DNA of 64,000 nucleotides. Source: Ferruginibacter albus (GTDB lineage: Bacteria > Bacteroidota > Bacteroidia > Chitinophagales > Chitinophagaceae). Shown one piece after another: positions 2,596 to 37,873 of the stretch. How positions within the stretch are numbered: the first letter of the stretch is position 1; each line of letters begins with the position of its first letter. The position numbers and the translations under genes were made by a program. The notes under the pieces were generated by a model. That model ran no database searches, was not told the DNA's origin, and saw only the letters and a list, made by a program, of their open reading frames with translations. The stretch lies in NCBI RefSeq assembly GCF_020042285.1, contig NZ_CP083388.1, positions 62,001 through 126,000 of the forward strand, in the 5' to 3' direction.

Positions 2596-3744
2596 ATGAA
2601 CCCTTTTATACAAAGTAAGCTTCCTACTATTGGCACTACTATATTTACAGTAATGACTTCTTTGGCTGCGGAGTATAGATCTGTTAACCTGGGGCAGGGC
2701 TTCCCTGATTTTGAAATGAGTGAGCAACTGGTTGAGTTGGTAAATACCGCCATGAAAAAAGGGAACAATCAATATGTACATATGAATGGCTTACAGCTGT
2801 TACGGGAACGCATATCCGAAAAAATACATACCCTTTATAACACTTCCATCGACCCGGATAAAGAAATCACCATAACTCCGGGTGGTACTTATGCTATTTA
2901 CACCGCACTAACAACTGTACTGCAACCTGGCGATGAGGTAATTGTTTTTGAACCCGCATACGACAGCTATATCCCTAACATTGTAATAAATGGCGCAATT
3001 CCGGTTTTGATTCCCCTCATCCACCCTGAATATAAGATTGACTGGCAGTTAGTGAGAAATAAGATATCGCCCAAAACAAAAATGATAATGCTGAATACGC
3101 CACATAACCCTACCGGCAGTATTTTAAGTAAAGAAGATATTGAACAATTGCGCAGTATTGTTAATGACACTAATATTTTTATTTTGAGTGATGAAGTGTA
3201 CGAACACTTGATATTTGATGGCAAGCAACATGAAAGCATGTTGCGTTATCCTGATCTATTGGAACGAAGCTTTATTTGTTTTTCGTTTGGTAAAACCTAC
3301 CACTGCACCGGATGGAAATTGGGGTATTGCATTGCGCCTGCATCATTAATGAAAGAATTCAGGAAAGTACATCAGTTCAATTGCTTTAGTTGTAATAGCC
3401 CAGCACAATTTGCCTTGGCTGAATTTTTACAACAGAAAGAAGCGTATTTGCAGGTAGGAAAATTGCTTCAACAAAAAAGAGATCATTTCCAAGGCCTGAT
3501 GCAGCAAACAAAATTCAAAGCATTACCTTCTTACGGCAGTTATTTTCAATTGTACGATTACAGTAACATTAGCAATGAAAAAGAAAATGACTTTGCAGTT
3601 CGGTTAACGAAAGAATATGGTGTCACAGTAATTCCGGTTTCAGCCTTTTATCAAACTGAAACCAATAATAATGTAGTGCGATTCTGTTTTGCCAAAAAGA
3701 ACACAACATTGGAAGAAGCCGTTAACAAATTGATTACAATATAG
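2596..3744 (+). CDS. ybdL: PLP-dependent aminotransferase, YbdL-type (methionine aminotransferase)
   Basis: This class I/II fold-type I aminotransferase resembles E. coli YbdL closely along its length: the start SKLPTIGTTIFTVMTSLA, then NLGQGFPDF, NQYVHMNG, TPGGTYAIYTAL, FEPAYDSY and NTPHNPTG. The PLP-binding lysine is K233 in SFGKTYHCTGWKLGY, and the C-terminal arginine is in VVRFCFAKK. YbdL-like enzymes prefer methionine, and some relatives act on kynurenine or glutamine; a role in methionine salvage is likely but the substrate is not fixed by sequence alone. The length (382 aa) is normal. It stands as a single gene between the transglutaminase-like and universal stress genes. Confidence 0.88.
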   Translation: MNPFIQSKLPTIGTTIFTVMTSLAAEYRSVNLGQGFPDFEMSEQLVELVNTAMKKGNNQYVHMNGLQLLRERISEKIHTLYNTSIDPDKEITITPGGTYAIYTALTTVLQPGDEVIVFEPAYDSYIPNIVINGAIPVLIPLIHPEYKIDWQLVRNKISPKTKMIMLNTPHNPTGSILSKEDIEQLRSIVNDTNIFILSDEVYEHLIFDGKQHESMLRYPDLLERSFICFSFGKTYHCTGWKLGYCIAPASLMKEFRKVHQFNCFSCNSPAQFALAEFLQQKEAYLQVGKLLQQKRDHFQGLMQQTKFKALPSYGSYFQLYDYSNISNEKENDFAVRLTKEYGVTVIPVSAFYQTETNNNVVRFCFAKKNTTLEEAVNKLITI

Positions 3745-6864: not shown

Positions 6865-8040
6865 ATGAAAAAAACAATTTGCATACTGCTTATTTTATTA
6901 TGCCATTTTTGTAATGCTCAGAATGCAGCGCAGGCAAGCTTTTTGACGTCGTTTAATTTTGAGCAGTTTACCGGCGGTATCATATTGGTGAAGGCAACCC
7001 TGAACAATTTTCCTGATTCATTAAATTTTATTTTAGACACCGGTAGTGGCGGTATCTCGCTCGATTCAACTACTTGCGTAGAGCATGGATTAGATCCTGT
7101 ACCCTCTGATACCACCATTACTGGTATGGGAGGCGCACGAAAAGTAAAATTTCTATTTAATCAAACACTTCATTTACCCGGCTTGGCAATCAGTGGCTTA
7201 AATTTTCATATTAATGATTATAGCTTACTTACCAGCGTATATGGAGAAAGAATTGATGGGGTGATCGGTTACGGATTTTTTAACAGGTATATAGTGAGAA
7301 TAGACTTTGACAGTACAAAGATTGAAATATACCGTCCCGGTAAAATTCAATATCCAAAGCAAGGCTATTTGTTACATCCTCTGTTTACAAGTATTCCAAT
7401 ACAATCAGTACAGTTAACAGATGCTCGTCCTATCGATTTTAATTTTTATTTTGATACCGGCGCCGGTATTTGCTTTTTAATGAGCGAACAGTTTGCACAG
7501 GATAGCGCTGTTTTATTATCAAAGAGAAAACCTGTTGCCACTTTTGCTGAAGGTGTTGGTGGCCGATTGCAGATGCACTTGACAGTGGTGAATAAAATAC
7601 GTATTGGCAAATACAAGTTTAGAAAGGTACCTGCTTATATTTATAAAGATGATTACAACGTAACATCTTACCCTTATATAGGTGGATTGATTGGGAATGA
7701 TCTATGGCGTCGTTTTAATTTAATGATCAATTATCCCAACAGGGAAATTTATTTGACTCCTAATACTCATTTCAGAGATGCTTTCGATTATGCTTACACC
7801 GGAGTGTCGCTTTACTATGAAAACAGCTTAATTGTGGTTGATAATATTGCACCGGGTTCTCCTGCCGAAAAAGCCGGTTTAAAAAAAGATGATATTGTAA
7901 TAGGTGTTTCTAATAATTTCAGCAATAATATCCAGCAGTATAAATTGTTGCTGCAATCCCCTCATGAAAAAATAAGATTATACATCAATCGGAACGGACA
8001 ATTATTAGACCTTATTTTAAAACCCCAAAGTATTTTATAA
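6865..8040 (+). CDS. Exported retropepsin-like aspartyl protease with C-terminal PDZ domain
   Basis: After a signal peptide (MKKTICILLILLCHFCNAQ) come two retropepsin-like lobes, each with an active-site triplet: FILDTGSGGISLD near residue 57 and FYFDTGAGICFLM near residue 197. A single chain thus holds both catalytic aspartates. The last 80 residues form a PDZ domain (NIAPGSPAEKAGLKKDDIVIGV). The location is periplasmic or extracellular. Related aspartyl protease-PDZ proteins are common in Bacteroidota but their targets are mostly unknown. It is divergent from mqnC, and the downstream M16 peptidase has its own promoter, so co-regulation is not required. Confidence 0.85.
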   Translation: MKKTICILLILLCHFCNAQNAAQASFLTSFNFEQFTGGIILVKATLNNFPDSLNFILDTGSGGISLDSTTCVEHGLDPVPSDTTITGMGGARKVKFLFNQTLHLPGLAISGLNFHINDYSLLTSVYGERIDGVIGYGFFNRYIVRIDFDSTKIEIYRPGKIQYPKQGYLLHPLFTSIPIQSVQLTDARPIDFNFYFDTGAGICFLMSEQFAQDSAVLLSKRKPVATFAEGVGGRLQMHLTVVNKIRIGKYKFRKVPAYIYKDDYNVTSYPYIGGLIGNDLWRRFNLMINYPNREIYLTPNTHFRDAFDYAYTGVSLYYENSLIVVDNIAPGSPAEKAGLKKDDIVIGVSNNFSNNIQQYKLLLQSPHEKIRLYINRNGQLLDLILKPQSIL

Positions 8041-10625: not shown

Positions 10626-10988
10626 ATGAAGTTTTTATTAAAAATATTGATCACTACCGTTAATGTTTTTATACTGGCGTATATATTACCGGGCGTTGAT
10701 ATTGTGAATAACAATATTTTTACGGCAGTAATAGTGGCGTTTGTATTAGCCATTTTGGATTCATTTGTAAAGCCAATATTGATCTTATTTACGCTACCCG
10801 CTACCATTTTCACGCTCGGTTTGTTTTTGTTTGTCATCAATGCCTGTATTATTTTGATCGGCGCATATTTTGTACACGGTTTTAAAGTAGATAGCTTCTG
10901 GCATGCATTATTGTTCAGCGTATTCCTTTCATTTTTCAATTCTTTCATTCACAAACGAGCCTTTTCCGACGAAAAGGGTAATAAATAG
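10626..10988 (+). CDS. Phage-holin-family-4-like small membrane protein (YvlD type)
   Basis: This 120-aa protein consists almost entirely of four hydrophobic helices (about 5-25, 33-53, 57-85 and 92-108), matching the phage holin 4 superfamily IV pattern: ITTVNVFILAYILPGVDI, AFVLAILDSFVKPIL, TLPATIFTLGLFLFVINA and LLFSVFLSFFNSF. Despite its name the family is chromosomal and not lytic as far as is known; its role is unclear. Its ATG is 3 bp after the M16 partner stop, so it is probably translated from the same message. It could be an envelope-stress membrane protein; no function is shown. Confidence 0.8.
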   Translation: MKFLLKILITTVNVFILAYILPGVDIVNNNIFTAVIVAFVLAILDSFVKPILILFTLPATIFTLGLFLFVINACIILIGAYFVHGFKVDSFWHALLFSVFLSFFNSFIHKRAFSDEKGNK

Positions 10989-11040: not shown

Positions 11041-11102
11041 TGATTTTTGGGAACAAACATTGTGCTGTTATTAAGCATCGTTGTGTCACTCCCTTGTACG
11101 GC
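11041..11102 (-). repeat. Dispersed intergenic repeat, copy A
   Basis: On the minus strand this stretch begins (11102 to 11076) with 27 bases identical to 37781-37807; the core is GAGTGACACAACGATG. The following part (AATGTTTG then CCCAAAAAT) is still similar to the copy at 37.8 kb. It lies between the holin-like gene and the E1 gene. Related copies are at 33771-33830, 37781-37841 and, weaker, 29599-29650. Confidence 0.8.
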
Positions 11103-11120
11103 ATACCATTATTGAACTTA

Positions 11121-11193
11121 TTTCACACAGCGTCACTAAGAATACAAAGTAAACAAAGGTATTGCGTTGTTTCTCTGTGTCCTTTGTGTGAAA
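11121..11193. repeat. Imperfect palindrome of the TTTCACACAAAG type
   Basis: The stretch starts with TTTCACACA (11121-11129) and ends with TGTGTGAAA (11185-11193), with further similarity of the arms inwards (purine-rich CACTAAGAATACAAAG against CACAGAGAAACAAC). It ends about 25 bp before the E1 start. A related half-copy ends at 39957. Such sequences recur between genes in many Bacteroidota; function unknown. Confidence 0.6.
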
Positions 11194-11218: not shown

Positions 11219-13252
11219 ATGCAATTCAATCGCAAACAATATAACAACGAATTACTCATCAATCTTTATAAGAGCCTTCTTTATCCAAGATTGATAGAAG
11301 AAAAAATGCTGTTGTTATTACGACAAGGAAAAATCTCAAAATGGTTTAGCGGCATCGGTCAGGAAGCAATAGCAACAGGCGTTACCATGGCGTTGCAAAC
11401 TGATGAATGGATAATGCCTTTGCATCGCAATCTCGGCGTATTTACCACACGACAAATGCCTTTGAATAAATTATTCAAACAATGGCAAGGCAATAAAGAC
11501 GGTTATAGCAAAGGAAGAGAAAGAAGCTTTCATTTCGGAAGTAAGGAATATCACATCTGCGGAATGATCTCACATCTGGGACCACAACTGGCATTAGCAG
11601 ATGGCGTTGCATTAGCACATAAACTAAGAAAAGAAAATAAAGTGTCTGTTGCTTTTACCGGTGAAGGCGGTACCAGCGAAGGCGATTTTCATGAGGCATT
11701 AAATGTTGCCGCTGTGTGGGATCTTCCTGTAATATTCATTGTTGAAAATAATGGCTATGCATTAAGTACACCAATCGAAGAACAGTTTCGCTGTTACAGC
11801 ATAGTGGACAAAGCAAAAGGTTACGGCATGGAAGGTGTTCGGATTGATGGTAATAATGTATTGGAAGTGTATGATACTATAAAAGGAGTAAGAGAGTATT
11901 GCATCAAGTATCAAAAGCCATATTTAATTGAATGTATGACCTTTCGCATGCGTGGACATGAAGAAGCAAGCGGCACCAAATATGTTCCGCAACGGCTATT
12001 CGACTTATGGGAAAAGCAAGATCCCATTAAAAACTATGAACGTTTTTTATTGGACCAAAAAATTTTAACCGATCAAGCAGTTGTGGCTACACGAAACGAC
12101 TTGCACGCTAAAATTGAAGAAGAACTGCAGATTGCTTATACAGCTCAACCAGTTTCACCAAATACTGAAGAAGAATTAAATGATGTATATGCTCCTAAAC
12201 TACAAAGCATAAACTTAGCGCCACAAGCAAAAAAAAGCTCACGCTTTACTTCGCCTGCACCTTCTTTTGATCCTTCAGATCTCACGTCTCACCCATTACG
12301 TTTCATCGACGCTGTTCAACAAGCGCTTCGTCAATCCATGCAAAAACATTCTAACCTTGTTTTAATGGGACAGGACATTGCAGAATATGGCGGTGCTTTT
12401 AAAATAACAGAAGGCTTTGTGCAGGAGTTTGGAAAAGAAAGAGTGCGTAATACTCCCATCTGCGAAAGCGCTATAATCGGTGCCGGACTTGGGTTGAGCA
12501 TTGAAGGGTATAAAAGTGTTGTTGAAATGCAGTTTGCCGATTTTGTAACAATGGGCTTTAACCAGATCGTAAATAATCTTGCTAAATCATATTATCGCTG
12601 GGGGCAAAATGCAGATGTAGTTATACGAATGCCAACAGGCGGCGGCGTTGGAGCAGGACCTTTTCACAGTCAAAGCAATGAAGCATGGTTCACGCATGTG
12701 CCTGGCTTAAAAGTGGTGTATCCTTCTTCGCCTGCGGATGCAAAAGGATTACTCATTGCAGCAATCAACGATCCTAACCCTGTTTTATTTTTTGAACACA
12801 AGGCTTTGTACAGAAGCGTTACCGGCGATGTTCCGGAAGAATATTATGAAACAGCAATTGGAAAAGCAACACATGTTCGTACAGGCGCTGACGTTAGTAT
12901 TATAACTTATGGCATTGGCGTTCATTGGGCGTTGGAATTTGTAAAAGCAAATCCCGGCATTGATATAGATATTTTAGACCTGCGAACTTTGCTGCCACTG
13001 GATCATGACGCCATTCGTTCATCTGTTGCCAGAACCGGAAAAGTTTTACTATTGCACGAAGACACGTTGACCGGTGGTATTGGCGGCGAAATAGCTGCAT
13101 GGATAGCTGAACATTGTTTTGATGTGTTGGATGCTCCAATTATGCGTTGCGCAAGTTTGGATACACCTATTCCTTTTAATATCGACCTGGAAAAAAATTT
13201 TATGGCGTATTCGAGATTAAAAGAAAGCATTCACAAACTAATGAAGTATTGA
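11219..13252 (+). CDS. 2-oxoacid dehydrogenase E1, fused alpha and beta subunits
   Basis: This 677-aa thiamine diphosphate enzyme joins the alpha and beta chains of a branched-chain/pyruvate-type E1. Alpha (about 1-320) has GIGQEAIATGV, the ThDP/Mg motif region GEGGTSEGDFHEALN ending in ENNGYALSTP, and the RMRGHEEASG loop. A linker of about 40 residues (to about 350) leads to beta with GQDIAEYGGAFKITEGF, TPICESAIIGAGLG, GGVGAGPFHSQS, FEHKALYR and LHEDTLTGGIGGEIAAWI. It decarboxylates a 2-oxoacid and passes the acyl group to the lipoyl E2. No E2 or E3 gene is adjacent, so the partner is encoded elsewhere. The sequence resembles the branched-chain group more than pyruvate dehydrogenase, but the substrate is uncertain. 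Confidence 0.9.
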   Translation: MQFNRKQYNNELLINLYKSLLYPRLIEEKMLLLLRQGKISKWFSGIGQEAIATGVTMALQTDEWIMPLHRNLGVFTTRQMPLNKLFKQWQGNKDGYSKGRERSFHFGSKEYHICGMISHLGPQLALADGVALAHKLRKENKVSVAFTGEGGTSEGDFHEALNVAAVWDLPVIFIVENNGYALSTPIEEQFRCYSIVDKAKGYGMEGVRIDGNNVLEVYDTIKGVREYCIKYQKPYLIECMTFRMRGHEEASGTKYVPQRLFDLWEKQDPIKNYERFLLDQKILTDQAVVATRNDLHAKIEEELQIAYTAQPVSPNTEEELNDVYAPKLQSINLAPQAKKSSRFTSPAPSFDPSDLTSHPLRFIDAVQQALRQSMQKHSNLVLMGQDIAEYGGAFKITEGFVQEFGKERVRNTPICESAIIGAGLGLSIEGYKSVVEMQFADFVTMGFNQIVNNLAKSYYRWGQNADVVIRMPTGGGVGAGPFHSQSNEAWFTHVPGLKVVYPSSPADAKGLLIAAINDPNPVLFFEHKALYRSVTGDVPEEYYETAIGKATHVRTGADVSIITYGIGVHWALEFVKANPGIDIDILDLRTLLPLDHDAIRSSVARTGKVLLLHEDTLTGGIGGEIAAWIAEHCFDVLDAPIMRCASLDTPIPFNIDLEKNFMAYSRLKESIHKLMKY

Positions 13253-29300: not shown

Positions 29301-29534
29301 CAGGATCCAAGCTTGGTTCGTAATGTAAAAGTAGCTTGTGCACAGGCTTGTAGCTCAGGTTGTATCACATTCGGCAATGTGAACGATCCCGAAAGTGAAG
29401 TATCGAAATTAAGAGCAGACAAGCATCGTACGTTCTACGTGTTGGAACAACTGCACGTACTCCCTAACGTTAGTTACATGGCGAAGATCAAGAATACGGA
29501 TAGAAAAGTAACGAACGAAAAGGCAGAAGCTTAA
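26361..29534 (+). CDS. actB: Alternative complex III subunit B, molybdopterin-oxidoreductase-like/iron-sulfur protein
   Basis: ActB (1057 aa) is the large periplasmic subunit of ACIII. The N terminus has a twin-arginine-like RRDFLKYLGFSTAA followed by a lipobox-like IAASC, fitting a lipid-anchored protein. Residues about 70-760 resemble a molybdopterin oxidoreductase (catalytically inactive in this family). The C-terminal third has ferredoxin-like cluster motifs: CTGCSACVVACTAEN, CQHCDNAPCENVCPVAA, CIGTRYCANNCPFKVRRFNW, and CSFC with CAQACSSGC. These carry electrons from quinol towards the haems. The length is normal for the fused ActB of Bacteroidota. A repeat-bearing gap of 134 bp separates it from actC. 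Confidence 0.95.
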   Translation: MEKKYWQSFGELNHTESFEESNKNEFKEDLLPFEDVDTGMLDAKTPRRDFLKYLGFSTAAAMIAASCEMPVRKAVPYLHKSDEVVPGVANYYASTYINEGDAVPVVVKQRDGRPIKIEGNELSTITGGGTSAAVQASVLDLYDTTRLRFPLQKDGGTFKEVTTFDAFDKLVGDAIAGIGAKPVVLLTSTINSPSTLKLIEEFKAKFAGSRHVQYDAVSYSGMLLANEATHGKKAIPSYRFDNAKVIVSLAADFLGTWLSPVEFGHQYAQTKKIKGEKPELSRHIQFESNMSMTGSNADDRFAHKPSEKAAVALALLAKVSGGAEVSISDAKLKKGIDLAAEQLLAHKGEALVVSGSNDVNIQIVVNAINEAIGAYGKTIDWSVTSNYRAGIDADFEALVADMNSGAIGALFIQGVNPVYNYYAKDKFISGLKNVGVTVSFNATMDETTELVKYIAPSPHWLESWGDAEPKTGYYSILQPTIYPLFKTRPFQTSLLKWSGNNTSYDNYFKAYWISKLGSEDAYFKALQDGVIEPALLAAAVAAVASTTITFSNAKLAEATSKLSAEKVSGADTIELVLYQKIAMGTGNQANNPWLQELPDPITKVTWDNYAVISPALAEKLLGIDVVKNQRQGDAYEVHPEKPTIKVTLNNISRELPVLIIPGVHPSVIAVAVGYGRQSADDKNTSDYIGRAAAGAGFNAYPFVTYDGISRRYSSVVKAEKTGNTYIIAQTQVHGFTEGRPVIYETTLEEFIKNPEEVLKEPNEEREKLIPYGHTDFVKDATIYPQHDKPGIKWGMSIDLTTCTGCSACVVACTAENNVAVVGKSQVKAAHEMHWLRIDRYFTGDVENPDVVFQPMLCQHCDNAPCENVCPVAATNHSSEGLNQMAYNRCIGTRYCANNCPFKVRRFNWLDFTGADSFPDNQKPLMGSAENGLDPAVFQMNEDLTRMVLNPDVTVRSRGTMEKCSFCVQRLQDSKLQAKKAQDPSLVRNVKVACAQACSSGCITFGNVNDPESEVSKLRADKHRTFYVLEQLHVLPNVSYMAKIKNTDRKVTNEKAEA

Positions 29535-29598
29535 TAAAAAGGCGCCGTTGCGTGAGATTATCTCATTCTTTTACTGAAAGAAATAGATAACAGAACAA

Positions 29599-32470: not shown

Positions 32471-33721
32471 ATGAGTAATCATTCATTCGAATTACCGGCA
32501 GGATATAAAAAGTGGACGATAGGCCTTATAGTTGCCGGTGTTATAGCCTTGTTATACGGGGCAATAGCATACCATCCATTTGGTCATTCCGAAGGGATAA
32601 CGGACAGCACACGCTTTTGGGCAGTGTTATTACAAAACAGTGTGTTTTGGCTATTAATAGTAAATGCAAGCATGTTCTTTATTTGTATTACTACTTTAGC
32701 ATGGGGCGGATGGCAGGTTGCTTTTCGTCGTGTGCCGGAAGCGATTTCGAGTGTATTACCTGTATTAGGCATTATTGCTTTTGTGGTATTGATGGCAATT
32801 GTTTGGGGAGGGCATCACGATATTTATCATTGGACAGATAATGAAGTGTATAATAAAAGCTCTTCGCTTTACGATAAAATATTGGATGGTAAACACGGCT
32901 TTTTAAATCCAAAATTCTTTACCATCTGGTCGGTTATTACAATTGGATTATGGTGGTTTTTAGGACAAAAAATGCGTAGCCTTAGTTTGGAAAGTGACAA
33001 AGGCGGCCCAATGGATTATGAAACAGCTAAGAAATGGAACATTACTAATATTACTTACGGATCTGCTTATCTTATATTTTTTGGTTTAACAGTAGGTTCA
33101 ACCATTCCCTGGTTATGGCTAATGAGCATTGATGCACATTGGTACAGCACCATGTTTAGCTGGTATACTTTTGCGAGCTCATTTGTATCTGGTTTATCAT
33201 TGATGGCATTGTTTGTTATCTTCTTAAAAAACAGGGGACAACTAGAATATGTTACAGACGAGCATTTACATGATATAGGTAAATTCATGTTTGCATTCTC
33301 TATTTTCTGGACATACTTATGGTTCTCTCAATACATGTTGATATGGTATGCGAACATACCGGAAGAAACAGGATACTTTAAAATAAGAGTGCAGGGTCCT
33401 TTCCGTGGAATATTCTTCCTGAACCTGATCATCAACTTTATTTGCCCGATCTTGATATTAATGAAGAAAGGCTCTAAACGTAACTGGACATTAATGACGT
33501 TCATGGCCGTATTGATCATATTCGGACACTGGATAGATTTCTGGCAAATGGTAATGCCTGGCACATTAAAAGAAAATGCTCATTTATCATTCTTTGAATT
33601 TGGTATCGGTGCTTTGTTTGTAGGTATTATAATGTGGAGAGTGGGTGTGTATTTAACAAAGAATCCATTGTTGGCAAAAAATCATCCTTTCTTAAAAGAA
33701 AGTATAATACACCATACCTAA
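32471..33721 (+). CDS. actF: Alternative complex III subunit F, NrfD-like membrane protein
   Basis: ActF (416 aa) is a polytopic membrane protein with about ten helices, related to ActC. Recognisable blocks are WTIGLIVAGVIALLYG, FWAVLLQNSVFWLLIVNASMF, AFRRVPEAISSVLPVLG, WLWLMSIDAHWYSTMFSWYTF, WFSQYMLIWYANIPEETGYF and FGHWIDFWQMVMPG. It pairs with ActC in the membrane part of ACIII. It is the last act gene; a 143-bp gap with a repeat copy and a promoter box precedes coxII. Confidence 0.93.
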   Translation: MSNHSFELPAGYKKWTIGLIVAGVIALLYGAIAYHPFGHSEGITDSTRFWAVLLQNSVFWLLIVNASMFFICITTLAWGGWQVAFRRVPEAISSVLPVLGIIAFVVLMAIVWGGHHDIYHWTDNEVYNKSSSLYDKILDGKHGFLNPKFFTIWSVITIGLWWFLGQKMRSLSLESDKGGPMDYETAKKWNITNITYGSAYLIFFGLTVGSTIPWLWLMSIDAHWYSTMFSWYTFASSFVSGLSLMALFVIFLKNRGQLEYVTDEHLHDIGKFMFAFSIFWTYLWFSQYMLIWYANIPEETGYFKIRVQGPFRGIFFLNLIINFICPILILMKKGSKRNWTLMTFMAVLIIFGHWIDFWQMVMPGTLKENAHLSFFEFGIGALFVGIIMWRVGVYLTKNPLLAKNHPFLKESIIHHT

Positions 33722-33723
33722 TA

Positions 33724-33755
33724 AATTATAATTGATAATTAAGAATTATCAATAG
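33724..33755. repeat. AT-rich dyad with ATTGATAATT/AATTATCAAT
   Basis: Just after the actF stop, ATTGATAATT is followed shortly by AATTATCAAT, forming a 10-bp inverted repeat. Related AT-rich motifs (AATTAATAATT, AATTGATAATTA) precede actD and actE. They may be remnants of one repeat family. Confidence 0.5.
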
Positions 33756-33770
33756 GCTGAATAAAAATTT

Positions 33771-33830
33771 ACGGTTGAAGAGAGTGACACAACGATGTTG
33801 AATAAAGTGATAATGCTTGTGTCATAATAA
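33771..33830 (+). repeat. Dispersed intergenic repeat, copy B, with hairpin
   Basis: The core at 33782-33802 is identical over 21 bases to 37792-37812, centred on GAGTGACACAACGATGTT. In this copy TGACACAA (33785-33792) is complementary to TTGTGTCA further on (33817-33824), so the transcript could form a hairpin with an 8-bp stem and a 24-base loop. It lies between actF and coxII. Confidence 0.75.
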
Positions 33831-33852
33831 AATAAAAATAGAATTAGTAAAA

Positions 33853-33860
33853 TAACTTTG
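33853..33860 (+). promoter_or_regulatory. Predicted internal promoter box at coxII
   Basis: TAACTTTG at 33853-33860 matches TAnnTTTG, and the predicted start is about 33864, one base before the coxII ATG. No -33 TTG at 19-21 bases is visible, so this is weaker than the M16 promoter. If used, the oxidase genes could be transcribed apart from the act genes. Confidence 0.45.
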
Positions 33861-33864
33861 CATC

Positions 33865-34920
33865 ATGACAGGAATTTTGTTAGTAGCGATTATTGTGATG
33901 ATATTCGTTATCATCTTTCAAATCTCGAAGGCGAGCGAATACGTTAGTGTTTTAAAAGGAGAAGAAACAGCTCGTAAACAAAACAACAAGATCAATGCTT
34001 TTTTGATGATCACATTTTTGATCCTGGGTTTGATCGGTGTTTGGGTATGCAATGATTTTTACTATGGTAAAACATTATTTGTACAAGGGTCTGCTTCTGA
34101 ACAAGGAAAGAAAATTGATCTGATGCTGTACATTACCATTGGCGTAACCGGGGTGGTATTTGTAATTACGCAGGTATTGCTTTTCTGGTTTGCGTTTAAA
34201 TACCAGGAAAAAGATAATCGCAAAGCATTTTATTTTCCTCATAACAACAAGCTGGAATTATTATGGACAACCGTTCCTGCTATTTTCTTAACGGTACTGG
34301 TAGTATTTGGTTTAAAGTATTGGTTTAAGATGACGGGTCCGGCACCTGATAATGCAGTTGAAGTGGAAGTTACAGGGCACCAGTTTGGATGGGAATTTCG
34401 TTATCCCGGACCTGATGGAATATTAGGTCATAAAGATTATAAATTAACACAAGGAGCAAATAGCTTAGGTATTGATTTTAGTGATAAAGCAAGCTTAGAT
34501 GATATTCACGTTGGCGGAACAATGCACATACCTGTTGGCAAACCAATTAAATTAGTTATCAATTCACAGGATGTAATTCATGATGTCGGGTTGTCACATT
34601 TCAGAATGAAAATGGATGCGGTTCCCGGTATTCCAACTACGCTTTGGTTTACTCCTTTGTATACTACAGAACAAATGAAGAAAAGGACCGGCAATCCTAA
34701 TTTTGCTTACGAGATCAGTTGCGATCAGATGTGTGGTAAGGGCCACTTCTCTATGAGGGGTGTAATTATTGTAGAATCAGAAGAAGAGTATAAAAAATGG
34801 TTGGCTCAGCAAACCCCGGAATACTACACGGTATATCCGGAAAAGAAACCACCAGTGCCTGCAGCACCTGCAGACAGTACAGAAAAAGGTAAAACAGCGA
34901 TGCTGTCTGCAACTAAATAA
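33865..34920 (+). CDS. coxB: Cytochrome c oxidase subunit II (CuA)
   Basis: Subunit II (351 aa) takes electrons from the cytochrome c/ACIII side through its CuA site. Unusually for the family it has three hydrophobic segments near the N terminus (about 1-20, 46-66 and 89-115) before the soluble cupredoxin domain. CuA ligands are seen as LSHFRM (His) and CDQMCGKGHFSM (two Cys, His, Met). There is no CxxCH, so it is not a haem-bearing caa3-type subunit II. The usual Glu between the two cysteines is replaced by Gln. It begins the oxidase part of the cluster. Confidence 0.95.
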   Translation: MTGILLVAIIVMIFVIIFQISKASEYVSVLKGEETARKQNNKINAFLMITFLILGLIGVWVCNDFYYGKTLFVQGSASEQGKKIDLMLYITIGVTGVVFVITQVLLFWFAFKYQEKDNRKAFYFPHNNKLELLWTTVPAIFLTVLVVFGLKYWFKMTGPAPDNAVEVEVTGHQFGWEFRYPGPDGILGHKDYKLTQGANSLGIDFSDKASLDDIHVGGTMHIPVGKPIKLVINSQDVIHDVGLSHFRMKMDAVPGIPTTLWFTPLYTTEQMKKRTGNPNFAYEISCDQMCGKGHFSMRGVIIVESEEEYKKWLAQQTPEYYTVYPEKKPPVPAAPADSTEKGKTAMLSATK

Positions 34921-36820: not shown

Positions 36821-37774
36821 ATGGAGGAGCAGCAGGATAAAACTACCATATCCAATTCAACATCGTTTGCATTGGCAGCTAAGGTGAAAGATTACTTTCA
36901 GTTGATCAAGTTCACTTTAAGTTTTATGGTGGTGTTTAGTACAGTAGTAAGTTACCTGCTGGCACCGAATGTAACGTTTAACTTACTATCAGTTCTTTTA
37001 CTTTTTGTTGCAGGCATGTTGATAACGGGTTCTGCCAATGCTATTAATCAGGCAATGGAAAAAGATACCGATGCCATGATGAAACGCACTGCTAAACGTC
37101 CGGTTGCATCCGGCCGTATGAGCGTAAGTGAAGCACATACTTTTGCAATGATTGCAGGAATATTGGGCGGTTTTATCTTGTGGTCTGTGTTTAATATTTC
37201 CAGCGCATTATTGGGCATAGCAAGTTTGTTTTTGTATGGGTATGTTTATACACCATTAAAAAAAGTGAACTCTGTTGCGGTATTGGTTGGCGCATTGCCG
37301 GGAGCTTTACCTTGTTTGATCGGCTGGGTGGCAGCTACAGGAGAAATAAACCCCGTAGCGGTTATTCATACAAATCATGGTGATTATACAAATGCGGGCG
37401 GATGGATCTTGTTTGCGATACAGTTCTTATGGCAATTCCCTCATTTTTGGGCAATTGCCTGGGTAGCGCACCAGGATTATTCCAAAGCAGGATTTAAATT
37501 ATTGCCAAGTGATAAAGGGCCGACGAAGTTTACAGCAATACAAACCATCATGTACAGCACATTGATGATACCGGTGGGAGTATTGCCGTATTATTATCAC
37601 ATAAGCGGTGCAATCAGTTTATGGATATTATTGGCTTGTAATTTATGGATGGTTTTTGTGAGCGTGTTGCTATATATAAAGATGGATGTGAAGAGTGCCA
37701 GAAAAGTGATGTTCAGTTCTTATTTTTATTTGATGATCGTGTTTTTGTCGTTGTTGGCAGATAAAGCTCATTAA
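36821..37774 (+). CDS. ctaB: Protohaem IX farnesyltransferase
   Basis: CtaB/CyoE converts haem B to haem O by adding a farnesyl group, the first step towards haem A of the aa3 oxidase. It is a polytopic prenyltransferase: the metal/prenyl-diphosphate motif is NAINQAMEKDTDAMMKRTAKRP (NxxxDxxxD), with a second Asp-rich loop AHQDYSKAGFKLLPS. About eight helices are seen. An in-frame TTG at 36809 has a GAGGAG-like stretch 9 bases upstream and would add four residues; ATG 36821 is preferred because SD use is rare here. It lies between coxI and the subunit III genes. Confidence 0.93.
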   Translation: MEEQQDKTTISNSTSFALAAKVKDYFQLIKFTLSFMVVFSTVVSYLLAPNVTFNLLSVLLLFVAGMLITGSANAINQAMEKDTDAMMKRTAKRPVASGRMSVSEAHTFAMIAGILGGFILWSVFNISSALLGIASLFLYGYVYTPLKKVNSVAVLVGALPGALPCLIGWVAATGEINPVAVIHTNHGDYTNAGGWILFAIQFLWQFPHFWAIAWVAHQDYSKAGFKLLPSDKGPTKFTAIQTIMYSTLMIPVGVLPYYYHISGAISLWILLACNLWMVFVSVLLYIKMDVKSARKVMFSSYFYLMIVFLSLLADKAH

Positions 37775-37780
37775 GAGCAA

Positions 37781-37841
37781 GCCGTACAAGGGAGTGACAC
37801 AACGATGTTGAAAGAAGAACAAATGTTTGGGACAAAAATTA
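37781..37841 (+). repeat. Dispersed intergenic repeat, copy C
   Basis: Bases 37781-37807 are identical to the reverse complement of 11076-11102 (27 of 27). The core is GAGTGACACAACGATG. The following part continues with CAAATGTTTGGGACAAAAAT, similar to copy A. It lies between ctaB and the first subunit III gene. Confidence 0.8.
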
Positions 37842-37854
37842 ATAACAAAAAATT

Positions 37855-37873
37855 GCCCTTTAGGGGTTAGGGG
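37855..37873 (+). repeat. Short palindromic repeat of the CCCTAA..AAAGGG family, copy 2
   Basis: GCCCTTTAGGGGTTAGGGG ends one base before the ATG at 37875. Its reverse complement, CCCCTAACCCCTAAAGGGC, closely matches TCCCTAACCCTAAAAGGGA at 50548-50566. Confidence 0.65.

Follow-up and report, generated by a model that had tools for sequence, protein, structure and literature searches.

What is the short stretch of DNA that recurs between the respiratory genes of Ferruginibacter albus, and does it serve those genes? Within the window, by which we mean the whole 64,000-nucleotide stretch analysed (positions 62001-126000 of the single 3.76-Mb Ferruginibacter contig), positions 37781-37807 are identical over 27 bases to the reverse complement of 11076-11102. 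An earlier note, made from the letters of this stretch, had called that identity far beyond chance, and our counts agree: GAGTGACACAACGATG is found exactly three times in the window, and none of 100 shuffled windows held three matches to it, even with three mismatches permitted. The note had also described a 21-base sequence shared with 33782-33802. This holds for the 37.8-kb copy and not for the 11-kb copy; the sequence common to all three is 16 bases. The length given for the repeat likewise needed revision, as the 27-bp identity is the middle portion of a ~85-bp repeat. A model (R1) built from 30 genomic copies, on which the copy extents in Table 1 are based, matched 82–83 bp in each of the three (E 7e-19 to 9e-21). 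A weaker copy that the note had placed near 29.6 kb proved to be real, but of another subtype (type D), with the same right arm and a different hairpin centre.

The reported position of the copies between genes, in gaps of the act-cox operon, matches the gene annotation. The 11-kb copy sits between a gene ending at 10988 and a 2-oxoacid dehydrogenase gene starting at 11219. The operon gene content around the copies comprises ActB, NrfD-type ActC, ActD, cytochrome c, COX2, COX1, UbiA-type CtaB and COX3. Here the type D copy lies between actB (ending at 29534) and the NrfD-type actC gene (29669), and the 33.8-kb copy between a putative actF (ending at 33721) and coxB (COX2, starting at 33865). 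The 37.8-kb copy overlaps the final codons of the UbiA/CtaB gene (ending at 37774) and occupies most of the ctaB gap up to the COX3 gene (37875). Two other strings were seen in these gaps. Directly downstream of the 33.8-kb repeat, and directly before coxB, bases 33838-33866 read TAACTTTGCATCATG; relatives have TAATTTTGCA[AT]CATG, and the string is kept in many genomes of the genus. From its letters it resembles the TAnnTTTG promoter of Bacteroidetes, followed by a very short leader. Before the COX3 gene, TTGCCCTTTAGGGGTTAGGGG lies at 37852-37873, and similar strings occupy the same place in two other loci (L239, L255); strings of this type are perhaps another small intergenic repeat.

Table 1. 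Repeat copies, cores, centres and transposase loci. Positions are those of the window unless a locus handle (L) is given.
Feature	Position	Strand	Basis or remark
Type A repeat, singlet	11041..11123	-	R1 70.1 bits, E 8.8e-21
Invariant core GAGTGACACAACGATG of this copy	11076..11091	-	exact match
Type D hairpin centre ATTATCTCATTCTTTTACTGAAAGAAATAGATAAC	29556..29590	+	DNA fold
Type D repeat, right arm CACAACGGTGTTGATTAAAG...ACAAAATAAAAA	29591..29647	+	R1 22.1 bits, E 8.2e-6
Type A repeat	33752..33833	+	R1 65.7 bits, E 2e-19
Core of this copy	33782..33797	+	exact match
Type A repeat	37761..37842	+	R1 64.0 bits, E 7.1e-19
Core of this copy	37792..37807	+	exact match
Centre type B			GATGAACGAAATGTGACACAACGATG
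Centre type C			GATCCTTCGTTCCTCAGGA, hairpin
Centre type D			TTTCTTTCAGTGAAAGAAA, hairpin; includes the 29.6-kb window copy
RAYT gene	L351:2517-3038	-	
REP pair around RAYT	L351 ~2450-2480 and ~3050-3090		G000:C1 ~1448450 and ~1449070
Palindromic repeats by YVKNQKEHH-type gene	L162:7530-7900; L341 780-1000	L341 reverse strand	

We searched the 3.76-Mb genome for the core and found 116 copies with at most two mismatches (59 and 57 per strand), compared with none for a reversed control; a profile search gave at least 149 copies. Among 90 sampled copies, 87 were intergenic, in stretches of which 89% is coding sequence (p 5e-78), and the other three overlapped called gene ends. The gene calls are hexamer-based ORF calls made in this analysis, so single gene boundaries are possibly off.

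The conserved stretch begins ~31 bases upstream of the core start and ends 52 bases downstream of it. A type A unit consists of a left arm with the consensus GYTGAATAAnGgTATGCCGTACAAG, a t, GAGTGACACAACGATG, and a right arm with the consensus YTGAATAAAGaACAAATGCY[g or t]GTnACAAAAA. The core is GAGTGACACAACG in the Ferruginibacter genome, or GAGTGACACAA-CGATG within the unit; its 11 bases are invariant and non-palindromic, and the arms are AT-rich. An upstream extension, GCTTnnATAAAAG, is carried by ~15% of copies (19/127 compared with 3.3 expected). The two arms are alike as direct repeats (alignment score 4.9 vs 4.1 for shuffled arms), not as inverted repeats. Lower-scoring copies have the same arms around other, often hairpin, centres (types B, C, D and E). 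The centre of the 29.6-kb type D copy recurs in loci L004, L332, L333 and L336, and its DNA fold had a z of -2.65 in the window copy and -4.5 in a sister copy. A sister type, F, has the core AGTGCGACGCAA (or TACAAG[AT]GTGCGACGCAA) with arms of the same kinds, and it is absent from the Ferruginibacter albus genome. We detected no invariant GTAG/GTGG or CGTC tag beside the core, no terminal inverted repeats in singlets and no target-site duplication (mean longest flanking direct match 6.03, compared with 6.14 by chance). Inserts of 1–30 nt splitting the core were not found in the Ferruginibacter albus genome. At one other locus (L091 ~7850-7960, minus strand), a 39-bp unit including the left arm was present in tandem (TGATTCTTCGCTCCTTATTGCTGAAAATGTACAAGTGAG).

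In related genomes the units also come in pairs. A 240-kb stretch of one relative (G064) contained 96 copies, none of them in called genes and 48 on each strand, at a density of up to ~1 copy per 2.5 kb. Where two copies lay less than 200 bp apart, the pair was in the -+ orientation in 19 of 20 cases; in other loci outside the Ferruginibacter albus genome 27 of 32 close pairs were so arranged, giving 46 of 52 for all combined. In these doublets the left arms make up the spacer, with the right arms on the outer sides. Because the cores are inverted around the spacer, they can pair with each other in single-stranded DNA, giving a stem that reaches 20 bp (z -5.2). Of four doublets folded, three beat their shuffles (z -5.2, -4.4 and -2.3), and a mixed A/F doublet was not significant. 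Inverted core pairs that form stems are the architecture of REPINs. The 97 type A copies of the Ferruginibacter albus genome included no doublets; all were singlets, or half-units.

The family is patchy within Chitinophagaceae. Among 99 genomes, type A ranged from 0 to 135 copies (0 to 81 in the genus when Ferruginibacter albus is excluded) and type F from 0 to 1,466, with high counts of 1,466, 953, 771 and 413. Outside Chitinophagaceae, ~285 genomes of a 296-genome phylum sample gave no matches. In a pair of sister species (G114 and G129), 13 of 14 examined copies were common to both, indicating that copies can persist for a long time; the 14th site holds other repeats. Between these species the 11-base core had changed at 0 of 143 sites, arms at 6–7% and flanks at 4–7%, a contrast between core and arms that is suggestive only, because an exact core match was used to select the G129 copies. 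Two observations concern palindromes in the same pair. A 15-bp palindromic insert, CCGATAACTATCGGC, splits a type A core in G114 and not in G129 (L291:1262-1277, minus strand, vs L281), with hardly any other change nearby, so that a mini-palindrome was precisely gained or lost. Another palindromic family, CGGTCGGTACCGAAGGTCAGACCG-like, is present in G114 intergenic sites (L298; flanks of L266 and L288), including a site where the sister species has a type A copy. Copy number, intergenic bias, patchy taxonomy, differences between orthologous gaps and inverted doublets in relatives thus bear out the earlier description of a dispersed, intergenic and mobile REP-like family: its copies number more than 100, lie outside genes and are present in sister species. 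The term REP-like fits the character of the family and not the strict definition of a REP; we call the family REPIN-like, not REP, because it is without a palindromic unit, a GTAG or CGTC tag and a linked RAYT.

The proposal that the repeat sets transcript stability in the respiratory operon, as a processing site or regulator target, was not supported. A cis-acting RNA element (a processing, stability or termination signal, including one in the act-cox transcript) would fit the bias of copies towards gene 3' ends, where 61% of them lie compared with 39% of random intergenic points, and the ability of one operon copy to form a hairpin. However, the orientation of 90 copies to their neighbouring genes (-- 36, ++ 26, -+ 19, +- 9) resembled that of random intergenic points. 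The hairpin, TGACACAA/TTGTGTCA of the 33.8-kb copy, is present as described but not conserved: 30 type A copies had no consensus base pair, single type A copies folded no better than shuffles, and none of 18 loci reached the gathering score of an Rfam family. Among 30 genus genomes, the actF-coxB gap contains a copy in Ferruginibacter albus alone (29 without) and the ctaB-COX3 gap in three (27 without). As most Ferruginibacter genomes examined keep the same operon with no copy in these gaps, and the hairpin is not common to the copies, the operon-specific role is not upheld either, and we consider an RNA element highly unlikely. In one relative (G171, L233:2380-2480), the ctaB frame apparently continues through a repeat copy, so that the repeat would encode a C-terminal extension of the protein. 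A site bound by a transcription factor, or by a protein that organises the chromosome, would explain a strictly conserved, non-palindromic core and the uneven spread of copies along the chromosome (chi-square p 4e-4); the genome of Ferruginibacter albus also has a broad excess of copies near the contig ends (Rayleigh p 0.008). Yet the copies have no tie to promoters or divergent gaps and, with the origin assumed at the contig start, no replichore strand bias; their positions are mostly not conserved between species, and within one genus their number runs from 0 to more than 100. Such a site is very improbable.

Other readings concern how the copies might accumulate. DNA-uptake signals, the DUS of Neisseria and USS of Pasteurellaceae, have an invariant short core and AT-rich flanks, and occur on both strands and in inverted pairs. 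A signal of this kind, accumulated by biased uptake and recombination, could account for the invariant 11-base core in its AT-rich arms, the conservation of core over arms between sister species, the equal strands, a density reaching ~1 copy per 2.5 kb, and the inverted pairs close to the ends of genes, with types A and F as per-genome dialects. But uptake signals occur within genes too, whereas only 0 of 96 and 3 of 90 repeat copies do; ~85 bp are conserved here, with long, specific arms common to copies with different, exchangeable centres, and the core figure of 0/143 partly reflects ascertainment, as an exact core was the selection criterion for the G129 copies. On the sequences compared, an uptake signal would be a most unlikely explanation. 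It is unlikely, too, that the repeats would be a classical REP/REPIN population copied by the RAYT of Ferruginibacter albus itself. The genome does encode a single RAYT of the Bacteroidetes type (NF047646 79.1 bits, cut-off 80), with the motifs NHIH, WQ and YLHYNP, near subclass 2.6 (PMC6006769). Moreover, 16 of 22 genus genomes having Y1_Tnp contain at least two copies, compared with 0 of 4 without Y1_Tnp, a weak association (Fisher p 0.014) in which genome size and phylogeny are uncontrolled. However, five genomes have Y1_Tnp and zero copies, the unit is without a palindrome and GTAG tag, and the RAYT gene is bracketed by a different inverted REP pair (GCCGYTGTTGnGCGTCYCGCCAACARCCGAAG), with no type A-family copy within 2 kb. 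No further copies of this flanking REP were found in the window or the compared loci. Eleven of 12 Y1_Tnp loci had no repeat copy nearby. Only one Y1 gene, at a locus orthologous between L162 and L341, had a copy next to it. The gene belongs to the YVKNQKEHH type and has other repeats adjoining; this group (subclass 1.2) is reported to be without REP-like repeats (PMC6006769). Downstream of that gene we observed clusters of the palindromic repeats GTCCCTACGGGAC and CCGTTAGGGAT...AAGATTGGTAGA. No mobile protein recurred among 860 proteins encoded beside copies that could mark an autonomous partner.

Three further candidates were rejected. A peptide coded by the repeat was dismissed by inspection, as the core is invariant at every codon position and there are in-frame stops. 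An integron attC site was dismissed in the same way: GTTGAAT resembles the GTTRRRY core site, but there is no RYYYAAC partner and there are no arrays. A phage or plasmid origin found no match other than a single viral contig (L260, IMGVR_UViG_3300047994_000588), in which, by inspection, the match adjoins an lpxB-like, chromosomal-looking gene; given this neighbour, the contig probably includes bacterial chromosome.

We think it probable that the window copies are singlets of a non-autonomous, REPIN-like superfamily of mobile repeats of Chitinophagaceae, mobilised in trans. The unit is a left arm, a short invariant core of type A or F, and a right arm; in sister genera, many units are paired as an inverted doublet with the cores on either side of a left-arm spacer. 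An enzyme acting in trans would copy or transpose the hairpin-forming single strand with no target-site duplication, and the restriction to intergenic DNA would come mainly from selection against insertions into genes. The copies look more like DNA that spreads than like a switch controlling the respiratory genes, and any influence they have on that operon is probably incidental. We infer transposition rather than see it, because the G114/G129 comparison yielded no clean pair of filled and empty sites. The singlets also have no hairpin, yet their core is better conserved than their arms, which is unexpected for dead remnants. REPIN singlets are described as decaying remnants in most cases (PMC8049555), and the persistent core of the Ferruginibacter albus singlets is not fully consistent with this. 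A less likely alternative is a separate class of bacterial mobile repeat, with constant arms and exchangeable cores (A, B, F or hairpins), whose core dialects would be favoured by a non-RAYT enzyme and which would spread as half-units or inverted doublets, to a density of about one copy every 2.5 kb in certain soil Bacteroidota.

In the openly accessible main texts searched, we found no earlier description of the family, nor its core strings in a relevant paper, and the family is apparently undescribed. It is a major part of the intergenic DNA of Chitinophagaceae, one 5.5-Mb genome holding over 1,400 copies, and apparently has no name yet. As a REPIN-like population it combines core dialects that differ by genome with exchangeable centres, and no transposase for it is obvious. 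How such repeats are copied and maintained can thus be tested directly in Segetibacter, Foetidibacter and Ferruginibacter, which are culturable genera. The findings also call for caution, in that operon gaps of this kind should not be taken for operon-specific regulatory sites.

Among known systems, MITE and ERIC-type elements resemble the family in being ~80–200 bp, non-coding, non-autonomous and intergenic, and differ from it in that the singlets have no detected terminal inverted repeats or target duplication and no parent transposon was found. CGTC-tagged REPs, in which each unit has an 8–9 bp stem, a 4–5 nt loop and a CGTC tag (PMC3733652), are also found in Bacteroidetes, largely extragenic and unlinked to transposase genes, mostly as head-head dimers; type A and F units are without such a stem-loop or tag. 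The REPs of Bacteroidetes RAYT subclass 2.6 (Bertels group 5), described as having 'atypical secondary structures' (PMC6006769), share with our family the phylum, the absence of a GT[AG]G tag and repeats elsewhere in the genome. They flank the RAYT gene, however, whereas here a different repeat does so. REPINs are inverted doublets of REP sequences, described in Pseudomonas fluorescens SBW25 (PMC3116915). In contrast to these, the unit of our family is not palindromic, its right arms are conserved outside a stem formed from two cores, singlets dominate in Ferruginibacter albus, and no linked RAYT was found among the Y1_Tnp loci examined. In other respects the likeness to REPINs is close: the copies are extragenic, number hundreds to more than 1,000, lie on both strands, have an over-represented ~16-mer signature, and occur as singlets and as inverted, spacer-bearing hairpin doublets whose presence is patchy between species (PMC3116915).
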